A program made the position numbers and the translations under genes. Below, one piece after another: positions 2,732 to 34,282 of a stretch of 34,282 nt of DNA (position 1 is the stretch's first letter; each line of letters starts with the position of its first letter). This DNA is from a virus: positions 1 to 34,282 of the IMG/VR virus record IMGVR_UViG_3300005436_000024; one strand, written 5' to 3'. Under the pieces are notes generated by a model that saw only the letters and a program-made list of their open reading frames with translations, did not search any database and had not been told where the DNA came from.

Positions 2732-2989
2732 TCACGCACGCGCTCCTTCTTCAGCGACGGGAGCTGCCGTCTCAGCCGGATGGCGTTTCCGGTCCGCCTC
2801 TCGCCATCCCACGGCCCAGGCGAGGGAGTAAGCCTCTGACCAGCTGCCGCGCCTCGCCTTCTTGGTGACGTGCACCTGGCGGTAAGGGTTGTCGTCCAGC
2901 GTCAGCCCGGCATCCCGCGCATAGCCACCACGGAAGAAGGCGCGCCGCAGCGCAGCGCTGGGGTGGCTCCGATACTCCCGCGGCGTCAC
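2732..2989 (-). CDS. Rmf/CrpP-like small protein
   Basis: 85 residues; the start overlaps the RecT stop as ATGA. The core GGYARDAGLTLDDNPYR followed by SLAWAVGWREADRKR matches the G..A...G...NPY...W..GWr.A layout of ribosome modulation factor and the related CrpP-type small proteins. In bacteria Rmf dimerises ribosomes in stationary phase. In phages such small proteins occur among early genes and their role is uncertain. The match rests on a short motif. Confidence 0.45.
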   Translation of the reverse strand: MTPREYRSHPSAALRRAFFRGGYARDAGLTLDDNPYRQVHVTKKARRGSWSEAYSLAWAVGWREADRKRHPAETAAPVAEEGARA

Positions 2990-3939
2990 CGCCGGAATGC
3001 AGCCCCTGGATCACTCGACAACGTCGTCGGCGATGCCGGCGCCGGCGCCGTAGAGGGCGGTTGGTCGGACGCCTCGGCGGCCTGGCCTTCCGCCGGGCCA
3101 GTTGCCTCCACCGTCTTGGCGTCTCCGCCCTCTACGGCTGCCGGCGCCTTCTTTGCATCGCCGTTGCGGGCGACACCGAAGTCGCTGAGATCGAGGACCT
3201 CACCTGGTGCGAGTCCGAGCTCACGTTCTTCATCGGCGGCGATCGCCTCTGCGGCCTCCGTCGTCAGAGGCAGGAAGGCGCTCATGCGCCGGATCACCGT
3301 CTTGGCCCCCATCGGCTCGTAATCGCTGACCCATGGCCCGTCGTCCTTGGCGCGTGAGCGCGCCCGATAGCGATCGACATCAGCTTTGCTCATGACGAGC
3401 AGTTGGTGGCCCCCGTTGGTGAAGCGAGCGACGCCGTAGAAGGCGACGATGCTGCCGCGGTCGAGCATGGCCGGCCGATGCACGAGGCGGTCCTCGATGC
3501 CGTACTGCCACTCGAAGACGTCGTTGGAGAACACAGCTCGCGCGCTGATGTCCGAGATCTCACCTGAACGCCGAGCCAGGACGATCATGCCCTTGTAGCC
3601 GAGGATGGGCGTGATCTCGCTCACGTTTTTCTTCGTGTTTTTGAAGGGCACCAGGTAGAAATGGCCGAGCGGGCCGCCGACCTCGAGGCCGAGATGCGCG
3701 GAGAGCAATAGCGCGCCGACGAAGGACTCGCGCGTGCAGTCAAGCAGCTTGGGATTGCGCCGGATCTCGTTGAGCGCGACGACGAGCAGACGATCCGCCG
3801 TCAGTCCGCCGGCCGGCAGTGCCGCCTGCAGCTGCGACTTGATCCTCTCGTCCTGGAAGATCGAGAGCACTGTCGATGCTGGCTTGGCCAACGACTGCGT
3901 CTGCTTGGCCTGGTCGATCCTGTCCTTGAGCTTGCTCAC
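2986..3939 (-). CDS. recT: RecT-family single-strand annealing protein
   Basis: The GTG at 3937-3939 is chosen because it overlaps the YqaJ stop (GTGA) and has AAGGAGGA about nine bases upstream; length 317 residues. The core carries RecT features: LNEIRRNPKLLDCTRESFVG, ALLLSAHLGLEVGGPLGHFY, then ITPILGYKGMIVLARRSGEI, and later VIRRMSAFLPLTTEA. It should anneal complementary strands exposed by the partner exonuclease encoded just upstream, giving phage homologous recombination in the cytoplasm. The last 65 residues are Ala/Pro/Glu-rich and probably disordered. The stop overlaps the start of the Rmf-like gene. Confidence 0.92.
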   Translation of the reverse strand: MSKLKDRIDQAKQTQSLAKPASTVLSIFQDERIKSQLQAALPAGGLTADRLLVVALNEIRRNPKLLDCTRESFVGALLLSAHLGLEVGGPLGHFYLVPFKNTKKNVSEITPILGYKGMIVLARRSGEISDISARAVFSNDVFEWQYGIEDRLVHRPAMLDRGSIVAFYGVARFTNGGHQLLVMSKADVDRYRARSRAKDDGPWVSDYEPMGAKTVIRRMSAFLPLTTEAAEAIAADEERELGLAPGEVLDLSDFGVARNGDAKKAPAAVEGGDAKTVEATGPAEGQAAEASDQPPSTAPAPASPTTLSSDPGAAFRR

Positions 3940-4904
3940 GTCGATGTCTCCTCCTTCCCGCCCACAACCGAGAACCGGCGATAACTCGACTTGACCGTTA
4001 GCTGCGCAGCGAGCAGCGGATGCTGGTTGCGAAATGTCTCGAGGTCGATCGTCGATCTCTCGAACCGCTTCCAGGTCACCCGCGGCCGGCCATCGCGTAG
4101 ACCAATCTCGGCGTCGCCGAGCAGCGCCATTAAGGCCTGCTCTGCTTCTGCGCAGGATTTTTCGGCAGCCTTCATGACGTCCTTCGCCTCTGCTCGCTGC
4201 GCGATGAGGGTCTCGGCCTCGCTCGGCAGGATCACGGTCTCTCCTCCGCCGCCGGCGAAGGCCCGACGCAGGTCCTCCGTCGTCGCCTCGTAGCCGTCGC
4301 TCGATGGAGGGACGTCGGCGAGCACGTGCTTGGTCCAGAAGGCGTCCTCGAGCTCGAGCAGGGAATCGATCAGCTCCTCGTCGCGCTCCAGCTCCCGGAT
4401 CTCCATGCGCTGGCCGCCGAAGAGGACCGCGAGCCACGCATGCTGCAGACCGGTGACAGCGAGCTGATGCTGGACCTGCAGCTGGAAATGGTCAGGGACC
4501 TGTTCAGCCCAATCCTTGCTCTTGAATCCGGCGACTGTCTTGATTTCGAGCGCCCCGAGCGCCGGGTAGGAGGGCCAGGGTTCCCCGGATTCGCACACGA
4601 ACCCGTCGATGGTTGACCGCATCCACTTGTGTTCCGGATGCTCGACGAGCTCGCCTCGGCCGGTGACGTGCAGGCCGGTTCGCTTCTCGAACTCTTCGGC
4701 GATCGCCGGCTCGAGGAGATTGCCCCAGCGTCGGTACTCGGCGTCGTCATCGTCGAGAGGTAGGCGATGGGTCTTGTCCAGCCAGATGCTCATCGCGCCC
4801 TTGAACGGATCCAGACCGGCGATTGCGGCCGCGTCTGAGGCGCCGATGCCGCCGCGGCGCCATTCGAGCCAGGCGCGACGATCAGTCAGGGACGGCGCAA
4901 TCAC
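3936..4904 (-). CDS. YqaJ-family exonuclease (RecT partner)
   Basis: 322 residues from GTG 4902-4904, chosen because it overlaps the previous stop (GTGA) and places RRGGIGASDAAAIAGLDPF near the N-terminus as usual. Catalytic elements of the YqaJ/lambda-exonuclease fold are visible: WGNLLEP (Glu about 65), STIDG (Asp about 100), LEIKT (Glu about 120, Lys about 122) and a QLQVQHQL helix. A coiled-coil segment follows (about 225-260). It would degrade the 5' strand at double-strand ends to make substrate for RecT. Tandem YqaJ-RecT genes are a standard phage recombination module. Confidence 0.92.
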   Translation of the reverse strand: MIAPSLTDRRAWLEWRRGGIGASDAAAIAGLDPFKGAMSIWLDKTHRLPLDDDDAEYRRWGNLLEPAIAEEFEKRTGLHVTGRGELVEHPEHKWMRSTIDGFVCESGEPWPSYPALGALEIKTVAGFKSKDWAEQVPDHFQLQVQHQLAVTGLQHAWLAVLFGGQRMEIRELERDEELIDSLLELEDAFWTKHVLADVPPSSDGYEATTEDLRRAFAGGGGETVILPSEAETLIAQRAEAKDVMKAAEKSCAEAEQALMALLGDAEIGLRDGRPRVTWKRFERSTIDLETFRNQHPLLAAQLTVKSSYRRFSVVGGKEETST

Positions 4905-6136: not shown

Positions 6137-6257
6137 GCAACTCTTGGTCGCCGAGGTCAAAAGTTCAGGACTCTGACGCGCTGGCATAGCGCACGTCAAA
6201 GACCAGGCGATCCGCCCGATCTCAGCCTGGAGTTTTTCACCCTGCCCGCTCAGCACG

Positions 6258-6304
6258 CCTGGTTTGGGACCAGGAGATCGCGAGTTCAAATCTCGCCCGC
6301 CCGA
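6258..6304 (+). other. attP: attP core: 3' part of a tRNA-Pro(TGG) gene
   Basis: The sequence folds as the anticodon arm to the 3' end of a tRNA. The anticodon stem is CCTGG/CCAGG (6258-6262 / 6270-6274) around loop TTTGGGA (anticodon TGG). Variable bases AGATC follow, then T-stem GCGAG/CTCGC (6280-6284 / 6292-6296) with loop TTCAAAT, then acceptor strand CCGCCCG and discriminator A. No matching 5' acceptor strand CGGGCGG occurs upstream, so it is not a functional tRNA. Integration at a host tRNA-Pro would rebuild the host gene from this piece. Identity with the host may start slightly earlier, near 6251. Confidence 0.88.
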
Positions 6305-6350: not shown

Positions 6351-6391
6351 CCGACGCGTAACCCGGCGGCAGTCGCGTGAAGGATCAAGAG

Positions 6392-7378
6392 ATGCCTCCC
6401 ATCGCAATCGTGAAGAAGGCCGACGCCTCGACCAACACGCTTGCTCTTCTCGTCGACGATTACCTGGCCCACCTGAAGTCCAAGGAGGTCTCGCATCGGA
6501 CCATCGACTGGCATCTCTGGACGCTGACCCGGGTTCTCCTGCCCTTCTGCGCCAAGCACAAGATCACCGAGCCGGCGCAGCTGACGCTCAGGCTGCTCGA
6601 GCGGCTGCAGTCTGAACTCCTCGAGCGGCCGAACATGCACACCGGCAAGCCGCTCTCCCGCGCCTCGGTGCGCACCTACATGCGCTCGATCGGCCACTTC
6701 CTGCGCTGGGCCGGCCGAGAGGGCGAGCAGGTCCCGGTCGCGCCGGCGCCGGTCAGGGTGCCCAAGCCAGCTCGTGATCGCCTCAGTCGCGAGGAGATCC
6801 AGCGCCTCGAGGACGCGGCGCGCAATGAGCGCGACAAGCTTTTGATCCGGATCTCCGCCGACACCGGGGTGCGGCTCGGCGAGCTGATCCACCTCAACGT
6901 CGACGACCTGGTCGAGGTCGACCGCAAGCGTTTCCTGCGCATCCGTCACCGTCAGTACGGAGGCGGCGCCAAGGGCGAGAGCGCGCGGCTGGTGCCGATC
7001 CCGCGGCTGTGGAGCCGGCTCAAGCGCTACATCGACCGCACCCGCCCCAAGGACTCCGACAGCCGGCGCATCTTCCTCAGCCAGGCCCGGCATCCCAAGT
7101 CAGGGCGCCATGAGCCGCTCGAGGAGCGCGGCGTGCAGCTCTTCATCTCCAGCCTCGCTCAGGACGTGCTCGGCAAGCGAGTCCATCCTCATCTCTTCCG
7201 GCACGCCTTCGTCGCCTGGACCCTGCGCCAGCCGGGCATGAGCACGGTGATCGTGGCCCGGACGCTCGGCCATTCCAGCACTGCGATGGTGGACCGCGTC
7301 TATTCGGAGATGGTCGGCTCGGACGACGCATACGAGGCTCTGTCCCGCGCGCTGACGAGCGAAGAGGACGCCGGCTGA
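6392..7378 (+). CDS. int: Tyrosine site-specific integrase
   Basis: 328 residues from ATG 6392, preferred over the GTG at 6377 because AAGGA lies seven bases upstream. The N-terminal SAM-like core-binding domain covers about 15-110. The catalytic domain shows all tyrosine recombinase residues: Arg161 (TGVRLGE), Lys about 194, His267 and Arg270 (HPHLFRHAF), His294 (TLGHSS) and the nucleophile Tyr304 (DRVYSEM). It should recombine the adjacent attP with a tRNA-Pro(TGG) gene of the host. It is one of only two plus-strand genes, so lysogenic integration is transcribed apart from the lytic operon. Confidence 0.96.
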   Translation: MPPIAIVKKADASTNTLALLVDDYLAHLKSKEVSHRTIDWHLWTLTRVLLPFCAKHKITEPAQLTLRLLERLQSELLERPNMHTGKPLSRASVRTYMRSIGHFLRWAGREGEQVPVAPAPVRVPKPARDRLSREEIQRLEDAARNERDKLLIRISADTGVRLGELIHLNVDDLVEVDRKRFLRIRHRQYGGGAKGESARLVPIPRLWSRLKRYIDRTRPKDSDSRRIFLSQARHPKSGRHEPLEERGVQLFISSLAQDVLGKRVHPHLFRHAFVAWTLRQPGMSTVIVARTLGHSSTAMVDRVYSEMVGSDDAYEALSRALTSEEDAG

Positions 7379-12462: not shown

Positions 12463-13578
12463 TCAGGGCTGGAGGCCGGCGTGCCCGAGCAGGATGAAGC
12501 GAGAGCCGACCATGAACTGGGTGCTCCCGACCATGAGCAGGGAAATGCGCGTGATCGGGGCGGTGCTGTCCCAGACAGCGCCCCGCTCGAGCTTCTGCTC
12601 AGTCCCGGTCGTTGTCCCGGTCGGGCTGTAGGAGGTTCCCTGGATGACCTTCTTCTGGCCACCCATGTAGTCCGGGATGTGGATGCGAGCGCCCGAGAAT
12701 CGGTTGGCCGGCGCGCTGTTGGCGACCAGTCCCGCAACGACTGCTGAGGCAGTCGCCAGCGTCTCCGATGCCGCGGCGGCGGCGGCGATGCCCGAGATCT
12801 GCTGCTGGTAGTAGTTCGCGCCCGAGTCGTTGTTGAGGCGAACAAAGATGTTGTCGCCAACGGCAGCCTGGTTGCCGCGTGCATAGAGGATTATCTCGAG
12901 ATCGCTAAGCCCTGTGGGGAGGAGGTTCGTGCCGACGCCGGCAGCGTTCAAGAAGTCGATCTGCGTCGCGCTGACCTGCGTCGGATAGCGAGCGTCGGTT
13001 CCGACCAAGATGTCATCGAGCACCACGATCCCGTTGCCGGCAGGTACCCGCCTGTCGGTGATCACGCTCTGCGGGATCGTCGAACTGGCGTGGATGATCG
13101 ACAGCTGGGCCAGGATCAGCGAGTTCGCGGGCGCGGCTGGCACGGCGGGGGATCCGGAGGGCGTACCGGTGACCATCTCTATCGTCGGCAGGTCGAGCGA
13201 TCCGGAGTAGAACTGGTCCTGATAGCGGGCGACCACCAGGTCGATCCGGTCCAGAGTGGCGTGCGCCGGGTTTGGGCCGAGGACGTTGATGTCCAACGTC
13301 GCGTCGTTGTAGAGGTGATACATGCCCTGACTCGCGGCCTGCGTGCCGCGGACGTAGCAGGAGCCCTGCTGGACATGAATGAACCCGTCCGGCGTTCCGG
13401 TGGCGAGCGCCTTCAGATCGGTACAGGTCCCGCGCGTGTAGACGACGCCCTGGCGATAACCGAGGGACGCGTCGAGCATGCGCCTGAACGCGGCGGCCGA
13501 GGTCCGAAGCTTGTTCGCCTCGACGTCGGTCGCGGGGCCCTGCAGGAACCACATCTCGGGCGCAACGAGAACAGCCAT
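12463..13578 (-). CDS. Minor tail protein, probable receptor-binding or upper baseplate
   Basis: 371 residues. It begins with APEMWFLQGPATDVEANKLR, then has a conserved-looking stretch HATLDRIDLVVARYQDQFYS and ILAQLSIIHASSTIP, ITDRR. The RID.vv.r...i...v..G.P...P..P.... pattern is typical of a structural protein in siphovirus baseplates that precedes receptor-binding domains. The C-terminal half is a separate beta-rich domain of jelly-roll appearance (TGLSDLEIILYARGNQAAVG and onward). Probably host-surface contact. Confidence 0.7.
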   Translation of the reverse strand: MAVLVAPEMWFLQGPATDVEANKLRTSAAAFRRMLDASLGYRQGVVYTRGTCTDLKALATGTPDGFIHVQQGSCYVRGTQAASQGMYHLYNDATLDINVLGPNPAHATLDRIDLVVARYQDQFYSGSLDLPTIEMVTGTPSGSPAVPAAPANSLILAQLSIIHASSTIPQSVITDRRVPAGNGIVVLDDILVGTDARYPTQVSATQIDFLNAAGVGTNLLPTGLSDLEIILYARGNQAAVGDNIFVRLNNDSGANYYQQQISGIAAAAAASETLATASAVVAGLVANSAPANRFSGARIHIPDYMGGQKKVIQGTSYSPTGTTTGTEQKLERGAVWDSTAPITRISLLMVGSTQFMVGSRFILLGHAGLQP

Positions 13579-13587
13579 CGGGCCTCC

Positions 13588-15027
13588 TTACCAGTAGGCG
13601 TCGCGGTAGAGCAGCTCGGCCTGCGAGCCTGCACCCGGACCTGCGGTTCTGTAGTGGATCGTGTTCACGCCCGGAGCGATGCTCCACCAGGACGTGCTCG
13701 CGTCGAGAATGTCAGCGCGGTTGGCCACACCGTTGAGGAGCACCGAGTGAAGGTCATGGTCGAGCTCCAGCACGTCGCCGCTCGCCATGTTGTAGTTGAG
13801 CATGATGGTCTCGTTCGATTCGACTCGATCGAGAAACAGAGGACCCGTCACCGGCCCGGAGACCGCCTTGATCCGAGTGACCGGTTTCGTGCTCGCGGTC
13901 CCCGAGCTGATGGCCTGGTAGAACCCGGCCGCGCCTCCGCCTCCGCCGATGGCTCCGGCCGTCACGCCCATGAGCGGAGGGGCGTAGGCCTGGACGGAGC
14001 TCGACAGGTCTCCTCGCACGTCGTCGACGAAGAACGTCCGCGTGACCGCCGTCCCCTCGTCGCGGACCGTGAGCATGACCTGGACCGGACCGGTCGCCCC
14101 GGTGACCAGCGTCACCGTCAGCTGCTGCCAGGTTCCGGTCGAGGTCACGACGGCCGCGCTCGACGCCAGGACCGCGTTGGTCACGTCGCGGGCCAGAAGC
14201 CGGATCGAGCCTCCTGCCGTCGAGAGGTTCACCCAGCAGGTGAAGGTGTAGGAGGTGTTCGGGAGCAGGTTGGTCAGCGTCGGCTGTCTGACGCCCTGGT
14301 TGGTCGACGCGCCGGAGGTCACGAGTTTGCCCGCCGCCACGCCGCCGTGGAATGTTCCCGTGTCCCTGGTCAGGGTTGCCCCGGCCGCGAGGTCGGTCGC
14401 CACGGTCGTGACCCATCCACCGTCGGTCGCGGCCGCGGACTCGAAGCCGCCGTTCTGGATGATCCGGAGCATCGTGTTTGGGACTCCCAGCAGAGTCGCC
14501 GCGTTCGCTACGACGCCGGCATTGGTGCCCGCCGTCCCGAAGGGAATGGTGACGTCCTGCAGCGTGCCCGAGTAGATCAGGGGGTCGAGCGCCCGGAACA
14601 TCGCGAGCACCGCGTCCTGCGAGAGAAACGGAAAGGACCGATCGACCTTGAAGCTCAGCTTCCGAGGCCGGCCGATGAACAGGAGGGGGCCTAGGTCGGG
14701 ATGCTGGAGCGTGAGACCGACGTCGTCGGAGGACTCGGCGAAGGCGACCTTGAGCGCCTGCATCAGGACCGCCTTGGCGGATCCGCTGAGCATGTCGGGA
14801 TGGACAAGCATGTCGAAGATCAAGTCCCTCGAGGGAGTTGTCTCGATGCCCCCGATCATGCCGTCGCTTCCTGCGCGCGGAACGTCGCCATCGCTGATGG
14901 CCGGTAGGTCTAGACCGTCGACATCAGTGAACGAATAGGCGGTGCCCGCCCCGAAGACCAGACTGCGGAGCTGGGCCTGCCAGGCGCCCGCCGGAACCGG
15001 CCACGCCTGAACCCGAGCCGGCGCCAA
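13588..15027 (-). CDS. Distal tail (Dit-like) protein with carbohydrate-binding-like insert
   Basis: 479 residues; TTG 15025-15027 follows the tape measure stop directly. Residues 1-170 resemble a siphovirus Dit N-terminal domain (LRSLVFGAGTAYSFTDVDGL, FIGRPRKLSFK, MFRALDPLIYSGT). A domain of about 160 residues then begins IIQNGGFESAAATDGGWVTT. It contains LLPNTSYTFTCWVNLSTAGG and TWQQLTVTLVTGATGP and ends FFVDDVRGDL, a CBM_4_9-type jelly roll. The C-terminal domain (about 370-479) completes the Dit fold. Dit forms the ring at the tail tip; the insert likely binds cell-wall sugars ('evolved Dit'). Confidence 0.8.
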   Translation of the reverse strand: MAPARVQAWPVPAGAWQAQLRSLVFGAGTAYSFTDVDGLDLPAISDGDVPRAGSDGMIGGIETTPSRDLIFDMLVHPDMLSGSAKAVLMQALKVAFAESSDDVGLTLQHPDLGPLLFIGRPRKLSFKVDRSFPFLSQDAVLAMFRALDPLIYSGTLQDVTIPFGTAGTNAGVVANAATLLGVPNTMLRIIQNGGFESAAATDGGWVTTVATDLAAGATLTRDTGTFHGGVAAGKLVTSGASTNQGVRQPTLTNLLPNTSYTFTCWVNLSTAGGSIRLLARDVTNAVLASSAAVVTSTGTWQQLTVTLVTGATGPVQVMLTVRDEGTAVTRTFFVDDVRGDLSSSVQAYAPPLMGVTAGAIGGGGGAAGFYQAISSGTASTKPVTRIKAVSGPVTGPLFLDRVESNETIMLNYNMASGDVLELDHDLHSVLLNGVANRADILDASTSWWSIAPGVNTIHYRTAGPGAGSQAELLYRDAYW

Positions 15028-21556: not shown

Positions 21557-21583
21557 CGACTTGACCTCCTGTGTCGGGTTGTG

Positions 21584-21610
21584 CAGCCGGGGGCTTCGGG
21601 CCCCCGGCTG
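21584..21610 (-). promoter_or_regulatory. Strong hairpin after the major capsid gene
   Basis: CAGCCGGGGGC (21584-21594) and GCCCCCGGCTG (21600-21610) form a perfect 11-pair stem with a five-base loop, 11 bases after the capsid stop. The transcribed strand has no T run after it. Like the hairpin after the major tail gene, it may be a partial terminator or a stabiliser of the abundant upstream message. Confidence 0.7.
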
Positions 21611-21621
21611 TTTCGACAGTA

Positions 21622-23148
21622 CTAGCTCGTGACGAGCACGCGGAAGGCGTTGACGTCCAGCACCCTCGCGTTGTTGCGCCAGAACGCGTAGAAGCCGCGC
21701 TGGCCGAGAGGCCGCTGACCGGCGGGACCGAAGATGTGCGGGATCACCTCGATGTCCATGCCGATGCGGTCGACGATGATGAAATAGCGGGGGTCACCCA
21801 TGACCGCGATCTTGGATCCGGTCGTGAGCGCGGCCACCATGGCCGACGCCTCGTTCGCGCCGTAACCGAGGACCTGGACGCCCAGGTTGCCACCGCGCGG
21901 CACGTCGTTGTCCAGGCCTGCGGGCAGGAAGACCAGCAAGCCGGCGCCGCCGGCGGTGTCGAACTGCCGGATCTTGTTCCAGATGAAGCGGTTGGCGATG
22001 ATCTGCGCGCGGGGGCGGAACCGCGGTGGGACCGCCTGCTCGAGCAGGTAGAGGTCGGCGATCGCGAAGGCGGCGGATCCGCCGGCCGCCTGGGTCGTGG
22101 TTGCGCCGGTGATCAAGCCGGTGGGGTTGTTGGCACCGCCGACGCCGGTCGTGAACTGCACGGCCTCGAGGTCGTCCTTGGCGTCCTGGATCAGGTTGGC
22201 GAGCTCGGTCTGCAGGCCGCCCCAGTCCTGGGTGAGTTCGATGTTGACCGGCACGAAGCAGTCCGCCCGGATCATCAAGAGGTTGGGCTGGGCGAGGACC
22301 GGCGAGTTGTCCGGAGCCTCGACGCCTTCACCCTGGTACTGCGCGGTGACGCCGGCGGAGGTGACGCCACGCCATTCGTTGCCGGGGATGGTGTCCACGC
22401 GACAGATCGCGCGGTAGGGGTTGACGGACAGGTTGCTGGTCGGGATGACCGTGGGGTCGAGCATGTAGGGAACGGCGAAACCACCGGTCGAGCCGACCTG
22501 AACGCCCATGGCGCGGACTAGCTGGACCGCGCGCGCTTCCTCTGCGGTGAAGCCGGCGTCGAAGTAGCCGTGGAGGTGAGCCATCACGGCCTTGCCGAAG
22601 GCGCTGCGATAGGCGGGCGCGCCGGTGAGGAGGATGCGCCGCGAGAGGTAGTCGTCGGTCTCCGAGTAGCGGTCGACCAGGCTTCCGACGTAGGCCTGAG
22701 CGCGCTCCTTGGTTACCGGCCGGCCGCGCAGGTAGGTTCCCTGCTGCCACTCCGGGAAGTGGGCGATCTCGACCGCGCGCATCGCGCGATCGCGGAGCTC
22801 GCGCCGGCTGGAGGCCGGATCGAAGTAGTTGGCGCGCACCGAGGAGACGTCGTAGACCTCGTGCTCAGTCATGCGGGAGATGATCTGGGGCCCGGAGCTG
22901 CGGCCCCCGCCGAAGCCGGTGCCGCGCTCGTGGTGGTTCTCCTTGTCGGCGAGCTCCTTGATGCGCTTGTCGCGCGTGGCCAGCTCGGCCATCACGCGCT
23001 TGTGCTCCTCGAGCTCTTCGGTGTTGGCCTTCCAGAGCTCGCGGACCTCGTCGGTGAAGGCCTCGTCGGGGAACTCGTTGTGCTGGTCGGTGATCCAGCG
23101 CTCGAGCTCGTCCATGCGGGTTTGACGTTCGTCGCGGGTGAGCGGCAT
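21622..23148 (-). CDS. HK97-family major capsid protein
   Basis: 508 residues. The N-terminal 90 residues are a charged coiled-coil delta-like domain (ERWITDQHNEFPDEAFTDEV, RDKRIKELADKENHHERG) that should act as scaffold and be removed by the protease encoded next to it. The rest has capsid features: GSTGGFAVPYMLDPTVIPTS, ADCFVPVNIELTQDW, GVGGANNPTGLITG, and near the end FYAFWRNNARVLDVNAFRVL. It is longer than the usual 300-400 residues because of the N-terminal region and an insert of about 100 residues (SSRRELRDRAMRAVEIAHFP to AVMAHL). No separate scaffold gene is seen, as in HK97. Confidence 0.95.
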   Translation of the reverse strand: MPLTRDERQTRMDELERWITDQHNEFPDEAFTDEVRELWKANTEELEEHKRVMAELATRDKRIKELADKENHHERGTGFGGGRSSGPQIISRMTEHEVYDVSSVRANYFDPASSRRELRDRAMRAVEIAHFPEWQQGTYLRGRPVTKERAQAYVGSLVDRYSETDDYLSRRILLTGAPAYRSAFGKAVMAHLHGYFDAGFTAEEARAVQLVRAMGVQVGSTGGFAVPYMLDPTVIPTSNLSVNPYRAICRVDTIPGNEWRGVTSAGVTAQYQGEGVEAPDNSPVLAQPNLLMIRADCFVPVNIELTQDWGGLQTELANLIQDAKDDLEAVQFTTGVGGANNPTGLITGATTTQAAGGSAAFAIADLYLLEQAVPPRFRPRAQIIANRFIWNKIRQFDTAGGAGLLVFLPAGLDNDVPRGGNLGVQVLGYGANEASAMVAALTTGSKIAVMGDPRYFIIVDRIGMDIEVIPHIFGPAGQRPLGQRGFYAFWRNNARVLDVNAFRVLVTS

Positions 23149-29456: not shown

Positions 29457-29726
29457 TCAGCCGGCGGTCTGCCACCATCGATCGGTTGCTCGCTCCTGTG
29501 CCTCGCAGCGCCAGACGCAGTCGAGCAGGTCGGCATATTGCTCTTGCAGCTCCGGATGGGTTTCCGGCTCGACGTCGATTGCGGTCAGCGCAGAAACGCT
29601 GCTGCCAGACAACCGGCGGAGGAATCGAACGCGCACGGCACGCAGGATGGATTGCACGGCGACCGCCTCCTCGCCGTAGATCCGCGATGCGGCTTGAGTT
29701 CTAGAGTCCGAGTCCTTCGGGGTCAC
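29457..29726 (-). CDS. Hypothetical protein between sigma-like and late genes
   Basis: 89 residues from GTG 29724-29726, overlapping the sigma region 2-like gene by 26 bases. It is helical and charged (EEAVAVQSILRAVRVRFLRR), followed by THPELQEQYADLLDCVWRCE. No family recognised and no ribosome site; kept because the frame fills the gap between two coupled genes. Confidence 0.5.
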   Translation of the reverse strand: MTPKDSDSRTQAASRIYGEEAVAVQSILRAVRVRFLRRLSGSSVSALTAIDVEPETHPELQEQYADLLDCVWRCEAQERATDRWWQTAG

Positions 29727-29937
29727 GACGATGCGAGCGCGCGTTGAGATTGCTCATCACGATTCGCATCCAGTTCCGGAGCTTGGTGTTGGAGCGAAAT
29801 TTCGGCGGCTTGACCAAGCAAGCCAGGAACGCGTCCTGGACCAGATCTTCAGCCTGCTCGCGGGTGTGCGTGATCTCTCTGGCGCGAGCCAGCAAGGCTG
29901 GGTACATGGGAAGCGCGCGCTCGATCGGCGTGGCCAC
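29701..29937 (-). CDS. Sigma-factor region 2-like protein (split sigma subunit)
   Basis: 78 residues from GTG 29935-29937; an internal ATG at 29907 would remove ten residues. The protein is almost only a sigma-70 region 2: THTREQAEDLVQDAFLACL (region 2.1-2.2, core RNA polymerase contact) and KFRSNTKLRNWMRIVMSN followed by LNARSHRRD (2.3-2.4, -10 melting and recognition). No region 4 follows. A region 4-like HTH is encoded in the gene immediately upstream, so the two may act together as a two-part sigma factor, as SigO and RsoA of Bacillus subtilis do. It could redirect host polymerase to late genes. Confidence 0.75.
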   Translation of the reverse strand: MATPIERALPMYPALLARAREITHTREQAEDLVQDAFLACLVKPPKFRSNTKLRNWMRIVMSNLNARSHRRDPEGLGL

Positions 29938-30628
29938 TACTCAATACATTCCGATGCTGGGGCTTCTTCTCCGAATTGAGGCCCAACCAGCGGAGGCGAT
30001 CGAGGGCGTTGCGATAGAGGGTGTGGACGGTTTGTGGCCGCCAGCCGAGGTCCTGCGCAATCGTCTCGAGATCGGGATTGTAGAGCCAGGTGCGCATAAC
30101 GGCTCGCTCGCCGGCGGACAGTTGCGCCCGCTCGAGCACGAGCTCTATTCCGTCCCCGAGTCGCTCGGCGGCAAGGTCTGACGCGATGCCCGGCGCCGCG
30201 GCGAGCTCGAGCGCATAGGTGTCGTGCCAGTCCAGCGCCGGCGGCGCCGGCGGATCCAGCAGTGCGATGTCCCCGAACTCGATGAGAGGCAACTCCGCGG
30301 CCGCCGCACCGGCGATCTTCCACTCGGCCACGAGCAGGTCTTGGGCGAGCAGCGGCCAGTTGGAGTGAAAGGCCGTGCTAGAGGGCCACTGCTGCAGCGG
30401 CCCAGGGTGGCCTGGGCGGTGCACCTCGTGCCTCTGCCAGACGGCGTCACTGAACGCCTGGAGATGGATATTCCGGGTCTTGGTCAAGCGATAGCCGGCT
30501 TTCGGCTCCGGATCGATGCCGCGGATACCCCAATCAGCCAGACGGACCACCACCAGCGCGAGTGCCGGTGCCAGGCGAGAAAGGCCCAGCGATGGCAGCG
30601 AGTTCCATCGCACCGCGATTGCTTGCAT
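29849..30628 (-). CDS. Protein with sigma region 4-like HTH (split sigma partner)
   Basis: 259 residues from ATG 30626-30628, just after the RusA stop. Residues 1-110 form a domain of unknown family (FSDAVWQRHEVHRPGHPGPL). Residues 165-216 are a sigma region 4-type HTH: LSAGERAVMRTWLYNPDLE then TIAQDLGWRPQTVHTLYRNA LDRLR, with the typical Ls..Er.vl....l..ia..Lg....tV....r.al.rLR spacing. No region 2 is present here; it is in the next gene, which this frame overlaps by 89 bases. The last 40 residues look unstructured. Alternatively an ArpU/RinA-type late activator acting alone. Confidence 0.65.
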   Translation of the reverse strand: MQAIAVRWNSLPSLGLSRLAPALALVVVRLADWGIRGIDPEPKAGYRLTKTRNIHLQAFSDAVWQRHEVHRPGHPGPLQQWPSSTAFHSNWPLLAQDLLVAEWKIAGAAAAELPLIEFGDIALLDPPAPPALDWHDTYALELAAAPGIASDLAAERLGDGIELVLERAQLSAGERAVMRTWLYNPDLETIAQDLGWRPQTVHTLYRNALDRLRWLGLNSEKKPQHRNVLSSGHADRARASHVPSLAGSRQRDHAHPRAG

Positions 30629-30633
30629 TCATG

Positions 30634-31056
30634 TCACTCACGGCCCACCTCCTCGGAGAGGTCAATCTCCCACGCCGGCGGCCCGACCAGCGCATAACGC
30701 TTAGAGCAGGCCACGCTGACCACCTGGCTGTCGTCCTTGAAGGCCACGCCATTGAGCGCGTCGAGCACCGTTTTCAAGTAATTGTCGACGTCCGGACGCG
30801 TGACCGGCAGAGCACTGTCACGTCGCTTCTTGGGGATCGATTGCGGCATCGCCAGCAGGGCTGTGATGGCAAGAGAGACTGGACCGACCCAGGCCTCGTG
30901 TTGCGGGAAGGTCTCACAGAACGTGGTCCGGATCCGCCATTCGGCATCCTTAGTCTTCGCCGGCGTGTAGATCCGCGCCTGCCCTCCACGAAAGCTCGCC
31001 CGCGGCCGTGCCTTAGCGACCGGATCCGTGACCACGCGGAAGGTGAGTCGGCTCAT
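30634..31056 (-). CDS. rusA: RusA-family Holliday junction resolvase
   Basis: 140 residues; the start overlaps the ATPase stop (ATGA). RusA features: VAKARPRASFRGGQARIYTP near the N-terminus, then RPDVDNYLKTVLDALNGVAF (catalytic Asp residues) and DDSQVVSVACSKRYA. It cuts four-way junctions made by replication and RecT recombination so that DNA can be packaged. Length is typical. Confidence 0.93.
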   Translation of the reverse strand: MSRLTFRVVTDPVAKARPRASFRGGQARIYTPAKTKDAEWRIRTTFCETFPQHEAWVGPVSLAITALLAMPQSIPKKRRDSALPVTRPDVDNYLKTVLDALNGVAFKDDSQVVSVACSKRYALVGPPAWEIDLSEEVGRE

Positions 31057-32825
31057 CGGACCGCGGCCTCCTCGAGGAAGAGCACGGGCTGCGCCACGAC
31101 CAGGCCTGGCGATGGGTAATCGATCAGCCCCAGCGAACGCAGCGCACCGAGATTGTTCGTGTACGCCGACGACGTCGACGAGGCCCCTGCCTTGTCGGCG
31201 AGCTCCGTCTTATCGGCAGGATGCGGCCACTGCTTGATCAGCTGCTGGAGGATCCGGACCTGAGGCCCGGGAAGGCGAGTGAAGAGCTGACGATGCAGCT
31301 CCTCGGATGTCTGCGGCAGATCCAGGTCCTCGCGCGCAGCCGAGCGGCCGGTATCGGTGAGGGCGACCAGGCCTGGTCCTGGATAGCTGACCAACCCCGC
31401 GGTGCGCAATGCACCGAGGTTGTTGGTGTACGCGGAGCTCTTCGGGCTGGCATCGGCGAGCAGCGCCAACTGCACCTTCTTCGCCTGCGGGATCCGGACC
31501 GACTCCAGCCAGAAGAGCGCGTCGATGATTCGCTGTTGTGGGCCGGTCGGCGAATGATGACCATTCGAATGCGACTCGACCATGCGGCCGGGTGAGGACT
31601 CCATCGTCCTGGCCGTCGGTAGCGGGGCCTGTCTCGGGCTGGTCCGCGTCCGGCTCAGGCTTCCCTCGACCTTCCGGTTAACGACCGGCTGCTCTGACTG
31701 AGCTAACCCGGCTGCCTGATCGAGCAGCATGTCGAGTACCTTGTGCACCTCGCCGGCGGCGCGACTGGCTGCCTGGATGCGTCGCACGAGATCGCGCGGA
31801 AGTACCTCGACGCGCTTCTCCACGATCTTTTCGCGGACCTCGACCTGCGGCTTTGCATCCTTGATGCGTTGATGCAACTGCTCCTCGAGCTCGCGGATCC
31901 GCTTGCGCAGTTCTCGGGGATCGTCGGCCTTCGCCTTCTCGATCGACCTGGCCAGCTGCTTGCGCAGTTTCTCCAGGTCGACGTCGGCGAGCTTCTTCGG
32001 CTCCGGTCGTTTCTCCCCGACCTTCGGCGTCGACGCGCTGTCGTAGGTGGCACGCCGGCGGACCTTGACCTTCTCGAGAATCTGCAGCCATTCCGGGCTC
32101 CAGATCCAGGCCGTGCCATCTGGCAGCTCGGGGAGTGTTGAAAGGATCGTCTGTCGCTCGTCGGCTCCAGCGTGATAGCGGATCCAGCTGTCGATCGCGT
32201 CGCGGTCCTGCGGTCCTGTCGTGCGATGCGCGATCAGCGTCTCGGCCTGGGTCGTGACGTCCTTGTTGACCTTGGCTGAGCGCTGGGTGATGAGGGTCGC
32301 GCCGATGCCTTCGCCGCGGCCCCACCGGACCAGGCGATCCATCTCGCCGAGCATCGCCTCCTCACCTTTGGCCGGCCGCTGCGGCACGAAGGCATCAGCT
32401 TCTTCGATGAAGACGTGGACGGGGACGCCGGCGTTCTTGTCGAGCAGGCGCTTGGCGAATGCGGCCACGAAGCGCGCGCGCTCGCCCACCGACCAGCCCT
32501 TGGTGCAGAGCACCATCGAGATCCGGTTCTCGATGAAGACGTCAGCCATGAGCTCGCCGGCGCTGGGCTCGAGAGGCAGGTCACCGTGCGCGCCGCCGAA
32601 GACGTAGACGCCGAGACCTGGACCGCTGCCATCGAAACTCGACTTCAGGCCGTACCAGTTGTCGAGCGGCGTCAGCACCACGATCGGCGCCACGCGATAC
32701 ATCTCCTCGGCGAGCACGGTCGCGGTGTTCGTCTTGCCCGAGCCGCGCTTGCCGAAGATCACGAACGTCTGCGTGATCGCGTCGACGGGCAGCTGCAGCT
32801 GGGGCGAGATGTTGAGCTTGCTCAA
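31053..32825 (-). CDS. HerA/DUF87-like ATPase with tandem C-terminal HTH-like repeats
   Basis: 590 residues; the start overlaps the preceding stop (ATGA). The ATPase domain (1-250) has Walker A FGKRGSGKTNT (about 24-34) and Walker B HVFIEEADAF (about 137-146), then RWGRGEGIGATLITQRSAK (sensor/arginine region), as in HerA/VirB4-type ring ATPases. A charged coiled coil spans about 280-345 and a Ser/Pro linker about 390-430. Two similar C-terminal modules follow, each containing SSAYTNNLGALR and a YP.PGLV end, probably winged helices. It may be the phage DNA translocase or helicase; no other helicase gene is visible. Confidence 0.85.
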   Translation of the reverse strand: MSKLNISPQLQLPVDAITQTFVIFGKRGSGKTNTATVLAEEMYRVAPIVVLTPLDNWYGLKSSFDGSGPGLGVYVFGGAHGDLPLEPSAGELMADVFIENRISMVLCTKGWSVGERARFVAAFAKRLLDKNAGVPVHVFIEEADAFVPQRPAKGEEAMLGEMDRLVRWGRGEGIGATLITQRSAKVNKDVTTQAETLIAHRTTGPQDRDAIDSWIRYHAGADERQTILSTLPELPDGTAWIWSPEWLQILEKVKVRRRATYDSASTPKVGEKRPEPKKLADVDLEKLRKQLARSIEKAKADDPRELRKRIRELEEQLHQRIKDAKPQVEVREKIVEKRVEVLPRDLVRRIQAASRAAGEVHKVLDMLLDQAAGLAQSEQPVVNRKVEGSLSRTRTSPRQAPLPTARTMESSPGRMVESHSNGHHSPTGPQQRIIDALFWLESVRIPQAKKVQLALLADASPKSSAYTNNLGALRTAGLVSYPGPGLVALTDTGRSAAREDLDLPQTSEELHRQLFTRLPGPQVRILQQLIKQWPHPADKTELADKAGASSTSSAYTNNLGALRSLGLIDYPSPGLVVAQPVLFLEEAAVR

Positions 32826-33664
32826 ACCGCTTCCACCTCGCGCATCGCGACAGCGGCCGTTTCGTTGATCCGGGGACGTTTCGATTCAGCCTTAGCTGCC
32901 TTAATTGTTTCGATCCATTCCTGGTGCTCGTCCTCGCTCATCGCGCGATGGCGACGGAGCATCAGCTCCTGAGCAGCTCCTCGCTCCCCAGGGCGCGCCC
33001 ATCGCTTCGCGTTGGCCGCGCGGATGGCCTCGAGCATCTTCTCCCGGCTTTTGCCCTTCCACGCGCCAGCGGCCTTGCTGGCGAGGCGCACGGTCTTGCG
33101 ATCGCGCTCGAGCTGAAGCATCAAGGGGCTCACCGGGCGCAGCGGACAGTCGGCTGTGTGGCAGAAACCACCCGGTTCGCACGCGAGACACATCAACGCG
33201 ACCGAGGCCTGGTGTTCTTCGAGACTGTGCAGGGAGACCTCGACGTCGGCGAGTAGGACCCTGATCCGCTTCCCGACGTCGCGTTTTATACGCGCACGCG
33301 GTTGCTCATCGATCGGGATCCGCAGTTTTTGCGTCACACGAAGGCAGAGCTCAGAGCAGTACTTCTTCGGACCAGCTCCTTCGTGGAGGAACGGTTTGCC
33401 ACAGCGCGCGCAGTGACCTGTCCGCGCCTCCCGCACGATGGCGAGCAACGTGTCATCACTGAGCGCTTCGGAGAGTCGTATCGCGGTCTTCAGCGTCGGC
33501 AGGTTGCGACCGTGGCGCCACTGCACGACAGCCGAGCGCGCTACGCCGGCGGCCTTGGCCAGGTTGTTCTGCCCGACCTGATGGCGCGTCATCGCGCGCG
33601 TCAAGGCATCTCCAAACCTGCGAGCTCCGATCAATCGCGGCGAGTCGGGATGGATCGCTCGCAT
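32822..33664 (-). CDS. XRE-type HTH protein with zinc knuckles
   Basis: 280 residues; the start overlaps the DUF6745 stop (TGATG). Residues 15-70 are an XRE HTH (NNLAKAAGVARSAVVQWRHG). A zinc site follows, GHCARCGKPFLHEGAGPKKY with CSELC (CxxC...CxxxC). A second cluster LMCLACEPGGFCHTADCPLR is a cysteine/His motif seen in other phage proteins. The C-terminal third is helical and basic (KGKSREKMLEAIRAANAKRW). Probably a DNA-binding regulator of the early operon; its target is unknown. Confidence 0.75.
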   Translation of the reverse strand: MRAIHPDSPRLIGARRFGDALTRAMTRHQVGQNNLAKAAGVARSAVVQWRHGRNLPTLKTAIRLSEALSDDTLLAIVREARTGHCARCGKPFLHEGAGPKKYCSELCLRVTQKLRIPIDEQPRARIKRDVGKRIRVLLADVEVSLHSLEEHQASVALMCLACEPGGFCHTADCPLRPVSPLMLQLERDRKTVRLASKAAGAWKGKSREKMLEAIRAANAKRWARPGERGAAQELMLRRHRAMSEDEHQEWIETIKAAKAESKRPRINETAAVAMREVEAV

Positions 33665-34282
33665 CAGCTCTCCAGAGCCGGCTGGTATTCCCCCTCGCTC
33701 ATGTCGAACGTCCAGGCCACCGCCTGCGGACAGCGCTTCATTGTCGGGGGCACGCGCAGGATGTACGACTTCCAGGATCCGTCTGGCTCGGGCGTGCTGT
33801 TGGTGACCTCGATCACCAGCAGCGGCTCGTCGCCTGGTTGGTCGACGCGCAGCAGCCGGCGCTGATGTCCGAGCTGATCTGTATCGCGATCGACGACCTT
33901 CGCCTTGACGCCAGCAAGGAAGCGGTCGACGCCGAGGCGCTCGACCATGACTCGCCGGACCTCGGCATTCGCCTCGGCGAGCACCCCGCGCGGATCCAGA
34001 GACTCAGGCTGCTCGATGACCTGTCGCGGCACGTGCACGCCGTGCCATGACCAAATGCCCCAGCCGTCGGGATACTGGATCGCAGCTCCACTCGCGCTGT
34101 GCAGCCGATGGCGATCGTCGCGCTCGAGCCGCATCGGTCGCTCGGTGAAGAGCACCAGGTCGGCGGTTGCCGGCCACCACCAGGTGCTCGTCGACCTCGC
34201 CACCTGCCGTAGGCCATCCACCGGCGCGATGTCGAAACCGCACGCGCGCTCGAAGAACTCGAGCCAGCTCAGCCACCACTCG
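33664..34282 (-). CDS. DUF6745 protein, C-terminal part (gene begins at 367 across the junction)
   Basis: Continuation of the junction-spanning DUF6745 gene; bases 34233-34282 are the redundant copy. The frame enters as EWWLSWLEFFERACGFDIAP and continues through the family's typical string: a TERPMRLERDD motif, RLHSASGAAIQYPDGWGIW, WHGVHVPRQVIEQPE, EANAEVRRVMVERLG, EVTNSTPEPDGSWK and AVAWTFDMSEGEYQPA. Read alone, the frame offers only an internal GTG at 34221 that would remove about 40% of the protein. Its stop overlaps the next gene's start (TGATG at 33662-33666), so it is translationally coupled to the HTH/zinc protein. Biochemical role unknown. Finding it in a phage early operon suggests a host-takeover or defence-related role, but that is inference only. 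Confidence 0.85.
   Translation of the reverse strand, partial: EWWLSWLEFFERACGFDIAPVDGLRQVARSTSTWWWPATADLVLFTERPMRLERDDRHRLHSASGAAIQYPDGWGIWSWHGVHVPRQVIEQPESLDPRGVLAEANAEVRRVMVERLGVDRFLAGVKAKVVDRDTDQLGHQRRLLRVDQPGDEPLLVIEVTNSTPEPDGSWKSYILRVPPTMKRCPQAVAWTFDMSEGEYQPALES
34233..34282. repeat. Terminal redundancy, right copy (circular contig overlap)
   Basis: Exact copy of bases 1-50. Joining the two copies restores one uninterrupted minus-strand gene of 311 or more codons. Confidence 0.95.

Follow-up and report, generated by a model that had tools for sequence, protein, structure and literature searches.

A half-sigma gene and a neighbouring DNA-binding protein gene suggest a two-part late-gene switch in a temperate phage

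Sigma factors are nearly always single chains. Split cases described in the literature include Bacillus SigO/RsoA and T4 gp55/gp33. In the Bacillus yvrI (SigO) - yvrHa (RsoA) operon, separate region-4 (SigO) and region-2 (RsoA) proteins jointly start transcription (PMC8103513); the two domains are listed the other way round in PMC10141391, which gives a mass of 9.00 kDa for RsoA. For its late genes T4 uses the region-2 protein gp55 together with the beta-flap protein gp33, a combination termed a split sigma (PMC2988020).

The window analysed here, the whole 34,282-nucleotide stretch of IMG/VR virus record IMGVR_UViG_3300005436_000024, likewise carries a sigma region 2 and a helix-turn-helix (HTH) partner on separate chains. 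As in SigO/RsoA, the gene on the region-4 side comes first and the small region-2 gene second, and the region-2 protein (8.98 kDa) has the size of RsoA, the likeness being one of layout and size. Unlike SigO/RsoA, the pair is found in a phage at the border between early and late genes, its region 2 is ECF-like and the HTH of the partner is not recognisable as region 4. With T4 gp55/gp33 it putatively shares a phage division of sigma function and a role in late transcription, whereas gp33 reads no DNA sequence and lacks sigma similarity while the partner in the window has an HTH. In sequence and predicted fold the region 2 resembles the ECF (group IV) sigmas SigR and SigH but, unlike them, its chain has no region 4. 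If the pair does act as a sigma factor, this small closed genome of 34 kb, in which a region-2 protein of 9 kDa has a DNA-binding neighbour, would offer a compact system for studying how the parts of a sigma can be separated, and might explain late-gene control in environmental phages without known late promoters. The features of the window that bear on the pair are:

29701..29937, minus strand: region-2-only sigma protein, 78 aa, regions 2.1-2.4
29849..30628, minus strand: HTH partner ORF, sigma region-4-like or LuxR-like, 259 codons
29978..30133, minus strand: helix-turn-helix of the partner, residues 166-217 (AlphaFold2, Foldseek)
30173..30232, minus strand: block DWHDTYALELAAAPGIASDL ahead of the HTH, residues 133-152, conserved across homologues (alignments)
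29457-29726: short ORF after the region-2 gene, unrelated, poor coding score
30634-31056: RusA resolvase, directly before the HTH gene
2986-4904: RecT and YqaJ exonuclease
6377-7378: integrase

A stand-alone sigma region 2 at the early/late border

The window belongs to a temperate phage, as indicated by its integrase and a tRNA-like att site. Bases 1-50 are identical to bases 34233-34282, and the record is probably a complete circular map of 34,232 bp. Just upstream of the integrase gene, positions 6253-6302 look like a tRNA 3' half whose anticodon loop, TTTGGGA, would be that of Pro-TGG; no whole tRNA was detected there by ARAGORN, and this stretch is the probable attP. When the map is read as a circle, the early genes extend from about 5.9 kb downwards past position 1 and continue from 34.2 to 30.6 kb, followed by the pair just ahead of the packaging block, in the order RusA, HTH, region 2, short ORF, 136-aa protein, HNH, terS, terL, portal, structural genes and amidase. 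The pair thus occupies the early/late border, in agreement with the initial annotation, which had located it between DNA-metabolism and packaging genes and had pointed to very short gaps. There is indeed no intergenic space at the pair and, as hardly any intergenic room exists near it, any late promoters must lie within genes or further downstream.

The product of 29701-29937 (pI 10.4) had been described as nearly only a sigma region 2, and profile searches bear this out. Pfam Sigma70_r2 (PF04542) matches residues 12-71 with 36.5 bits (cut-off 24, E=4.4e-9), a score above the gathering threshold that places the protein in the sigma-70 family. NCBIfam TIGR02937 (sigma70-ECF) matches with E=5e-8, the NCBIfam ECF sigma models align with the protein as far as the end of region 2, and a PDB sequence-profile search retrieved region 2 of SigR (E=7e-7); the match to PhyR_sigma2 is weak (E=6e-4, versus 4e-9 for Sigma70_r2). 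The core-binding motif EDLVQD falls in region 2.2, and W56 and RR70-71 fall in regions 2.3-2.4. AlphaFold2 predicts three helices in a region-2 fold (pLDDT 83), and the top PDB structure matches of this model are mostly ECF region 2 domains (SigH, SigR; probability 0.99-1.00), although for so short a chain the E-values are no better than 0.04. With a codon-usage model derived from long genes of the same phage, we scored 29701-29937 at +21.5 bits in its own frame versus -41 and -30 bits in the other frames. A Pfam search of the whole window record returned no second Sigma70_r2. ECF sigmas carry regions 2 and 4 on one chain, and the region-2 chains of the window and of its relatives L002 and L004 (see below) carry region 2 only. 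We conclude that the 78-aa protein, coding and complete, represents a true ECF-type sigma region 2 that stands alone.

The helix-turn-helix partner and its overlap with the region-2 gene

The initial annotation had held that the gene directly upstream ends in a region 4-type HTH. An HTH is present at residues 166-217, where AlphaFold2 places helices at 160-167, 172-183, 187-194 and 198-217 with block mean pLDDT values of 69-91, the model being poor away from the HTH and usable there alone. The gene does not end with it: 42 further codons follow, the last 29 of them overlapping the region-2 gene. As to its type, the Pfam Sigma70_r4 match is below threshold (E=0.027; 14.4 bits, cut-off 24.1) and no better than that of GerE, the profile used for GerE/LuxR membership, which is below its own cut-off as well (13.8 bits, cut-off 23.5, E=0.047). 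The homologue in L002 matches Sigma70_r4 with E=0.049 and that in L004 matches HTH_38 with E=4.5e-7.

Sigma region-4 and LuxR profiles were built from 26 sequences each, the source being the two bacterial genomes in which terminase relatives were found (see below). The HTH proteins of L090, L004, the window and L002 scored 18.1, 16.8, 12.5 and 10.5 bits with the sigma region-4 profile and 11.3, 17.7, 11.2 and 16.7 bits with the LuxR profile, summing over the four proteins to about 58 versus 57 bits, and hhalign gave 96.8% for sigma region 4 and 97.9% for LuxR. Foldseek matched the HTH of the partner to sigma region 4 (3hug, probability 1.00; 3vfz, TM 0.72 of target) and to the LuxR-type EvgA (0.90-0.96). 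Sequence profiles therefore tie or lean slightly towards LuxR, and the structure search leans slightly towards sigma region 4. "Region 4-like" seems a fair label for the predicted domain, and its identity as a sigma region 4 is plausible and no firmer, because the profiles fail to separate region 4 from LuxR/GerE. A profile of the partner run against 397 Actinomycetota genomes gave HTH-level matches alone (best E 1e-7) and no convincing homologue.

The partner ORF shares 89 nt (29849-29937) with the region-2 gene. Over 30628-29938 the partner frame scores +58.8 bits, falling to -14.8 bits in the overlap, where the region-2 frame scores +6.3 bits before reaching +15.1 bits after it. Since the coding signal switches frame at the start of the region-2 gene, the final 29 codons of the partner ORF look non-coding and are probably read-through without meaning. 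The GTG start codon of the region-2 gene overlaps with a TAG in the third frame, and a TGA lies in the region-2 frame directly upstream of it. A single chain fused by frameshifting was considered and ruled out by this in-frame TGA and by the gene that lies between the two halves in L004, which excludes a frameshifted chain in that phage.

Relatives of the pair

Relatives were fetched with terminase and HerA-like ATPase queries, never with sigma sequences. The HerA-like ATPase (31053-32825, DUF87 match) carries two repeats of similar sequence in its C-terminal part, SSAYTNNLGALR..GLVSYPGPGLV and SSAYTNNLGALRSLGLIDYPSPGLV, and has relatives in 37 environmental phage loci. Among bacterial genomes only two terminase relatives were found, in Nocardioides kribbensis (51%) and in a Chloroflexi MAG (37%). 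Sigma70_r2 exceeded the Pfam cut-off in five of the 116 distinct virus records (the window, L002, L004, L040 and L058). Genes with region 2 only, each with a homologue of the HTH protein upstream, occur in three of the 116: the window, L002 (Sigma70_r2 25.6 bits, terminase 82% identical to that of the window) and L004 (25.2 bits, 71%). L040 has a 228-codon stop-to-stop frame with a region-2 match alone. L058, a HerA-carrying phage, encodes a full-length sigma with regions 2 and 4 (13241-13882) directly before its terminase gene, so that a single-chain sigma occupies the position that the split pair holds elsewhere. The genes concerned are:

L002:4694-5221 (stop 5224): HTH homologue
L004:241-783: HTH homologue
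L004:783-1238: ORF between the HTH and region-2 genes, scores as coding
L004:1284-1574: region-2 gene
L090:5250-5786: HTH homologue

In L002 the ATG of the region-2 gene (5196) lies within the end of the HTH gene and the pair stands, as in the window, shortly before HNH-terS-terL. In L004 structural-type genes separate region 2 from the terminase. The ORF at 783-1238 of L004 appears nuclease-like by eye (LLIESKWPAQ) and gave no Pfam match above the cut-off.

The region-2 proteins of L002 and L004 are only 32-34% identical to that of the window. The region 2.2 motif is kept (EDLVQD / DDLVQE / EDIVQD), and W56 and RR70-71 are retained in all three proteins. On the partner side, a single-sequence search connects the HTH proteins of L004 and the window (E=7e-25), a model of these two finds that of L090 (E=2e-7), and a model of these three finds that of L002 with E=7e-10 in 19,519 ORFs; as L002 was kept out of the model, the homology is not circular. 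Every region-2 and partner frame scores as coding with the codon-usage model. The occurrence of both genes in the same order in two diverged relatives indicates that the arrangement is not due to chance, and the separation and reversed order of the region-2 and HTH parts that had been proposed for the window hold in all three phages. These are the only three known instances of the pair. In the 40.6-kb L090 record region 2 was undetected although the HTH protein is present, and the pair is therefore not obligatory. It is to be noted that HTH homologues were sought mainly in the stretches that had been fetched, which makes absence of the HTH protein from other parts of the full records less certain.

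Wider searches yielded no further locus. Viral-contig scans with either the region-2 or the HTH protein as the sole query returned nothing, a viral scan with the 136-aa gene adjoining region 2 added no locus, and most tblastn searches of INPHARED gave no result. The weak INPHARED region-2 matches that were opened proved to belong to sigma genes of greater length (in a Nitrincola phage a sigma-70 gene of 576 bp, in two faecal contigs complete ECFs), and a weak match in L120 corresponded to no convincing region-2 ORF. In L005 (terminase 69%) an unrelated small gene precedes the homologue of the 136-aa gene and the DNA farther upstream is missing.

A two-subunit sigma and its alternatives

A half-sigma gene next to the gene of a DNA-binding protein suggests a two-part late-gene switch, and our best reading, held with moderate confidence, is by analogy a two-subunit late sigma built like SigO/RsoA, the pair named for comparison in the initial annotation, and used like T4 gp55/gp33. 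The 78-aa protein would dock via region 2.2 onto the beta' clamp helices of the host RNA polymerase and its regions 2.3-2.4 would read and melt the -10 element, while the HTH protein, possibly in contact with it, would bind upstream (-35-like) DNA in place of region 4 and perhaps also touch the beta flap. Both would be products of the last part of the early operon, and polymerase would initiate at the neighbouring packaging and structural genes only in the presence of both.

That the pair is a two-subunit phage sigma turning on late genes is, in our estimate, an evenly balanced proposition. In its favour are the region-2 score well above the cut-off, the conserved motif, the retrieval of relatives by non-sigma queries, the homology of the partners, the coding signal of all frames, the lack of a second Sigma70_r2 in the closed genome, the location ahead of the terminase in the window and L002, the single-chain sigma of L058 and the precedent of the SigO/RsoA split; against it are an HTH not diagnosable as region 4, the failure to detect region 2 in L090, the intervening ORF of L004 and its structural-type genes ahead of the terminase, the absence of an evident late promoter, the poor model of the partner outside the HTH and the small number of known instances, three. 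A small separate chain with region 2, encoded beside its partner as in SigO/RsoA, is found in the window and L002, with one gene in between in L004. The initial annotation had named two findings that would refute a split sigma, and neither was encountered: the Pfam match to region 2 is above the cut-off, and in L004 the halves are kept apart by a separate gene, so that no frameshift correction could join them there. Overall, its observation is partly confirmed and its interpretation partly supported.

Other functions can be envisaged for the two proteins. Region 2 might be a minimal sigma by itself, like T4 gp55 in basal late transcription, with the HTH protein an ordinary late activator recruiting it, not a region 4, and off the beta flap. 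The slightly closer hhalign match to LuxR, the HTH_38 match in L004 and the occurrence of the HTH protein without region 2 in L090 would fit such a division of labour, which we nonetheless consider unlikely, as Foldseek ranks sigma region 4 (3hug, 3vfz) weakly above EvgA and the two genes overlap and adjoin in the window and L002. The HTH protein might also be a stand-alone late regulator of the RinA/Ltr positional class and region 2 a clamp-binding decoy or sigma mimic that diverts or inhibits host transcription. The late regulators RinA and Ltr are commonly located just ahead of packaging genes (PMC13123087), and by its position the partner could be of this class; the passage cited mentions no region-2 partner for RinA/Ltr. 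PhyR, whose sigma-like region acts without starting transcription (PMC8103513), offers a model for such a decoy, and the weak PhyR_sigma2 match and the lone HTH protein of L090 are in line with it. However, Sigma70_r2 is by far the better match, all three homologues keep W56 and a basic end to the 2.4 helix, and it is hard to see why a decoy should go together with the HTH gene each time, so that this explanation appears rather improbable. Finally, the region-2 gene might be the functionless, decaying remnant of a normal ECF sigma gene, given its shortness, its few relatives and the unrelated, poorly coding ORF that follows it. An intact, coding gene in three phages at such low identity, never with an in-frame region 4, makes decay very improbable.

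Returning to the two-subunit sigma, a broader version would have a group of environmental temperate phages evolve an obligate two-chain sigma, in which a divergent HTH protein complements a region 2 of ECF type, independently of SigO/RsoA and gp55/gp33, as an AND gate on late genes; this we regard as a tentative and somewhat doubtful extension.

Two other elements of the window were recorded. In the early region, 33664-34221 encodes a DUF6745 protein (E=8e-53). Directly after the gene at 21622-23148, positions 21557-21621 form a strong hairpin, CCGGGGGC-CGAA-GCCCCCGG, which is possibly a terminator or an RNA processing site inside the structural operon.
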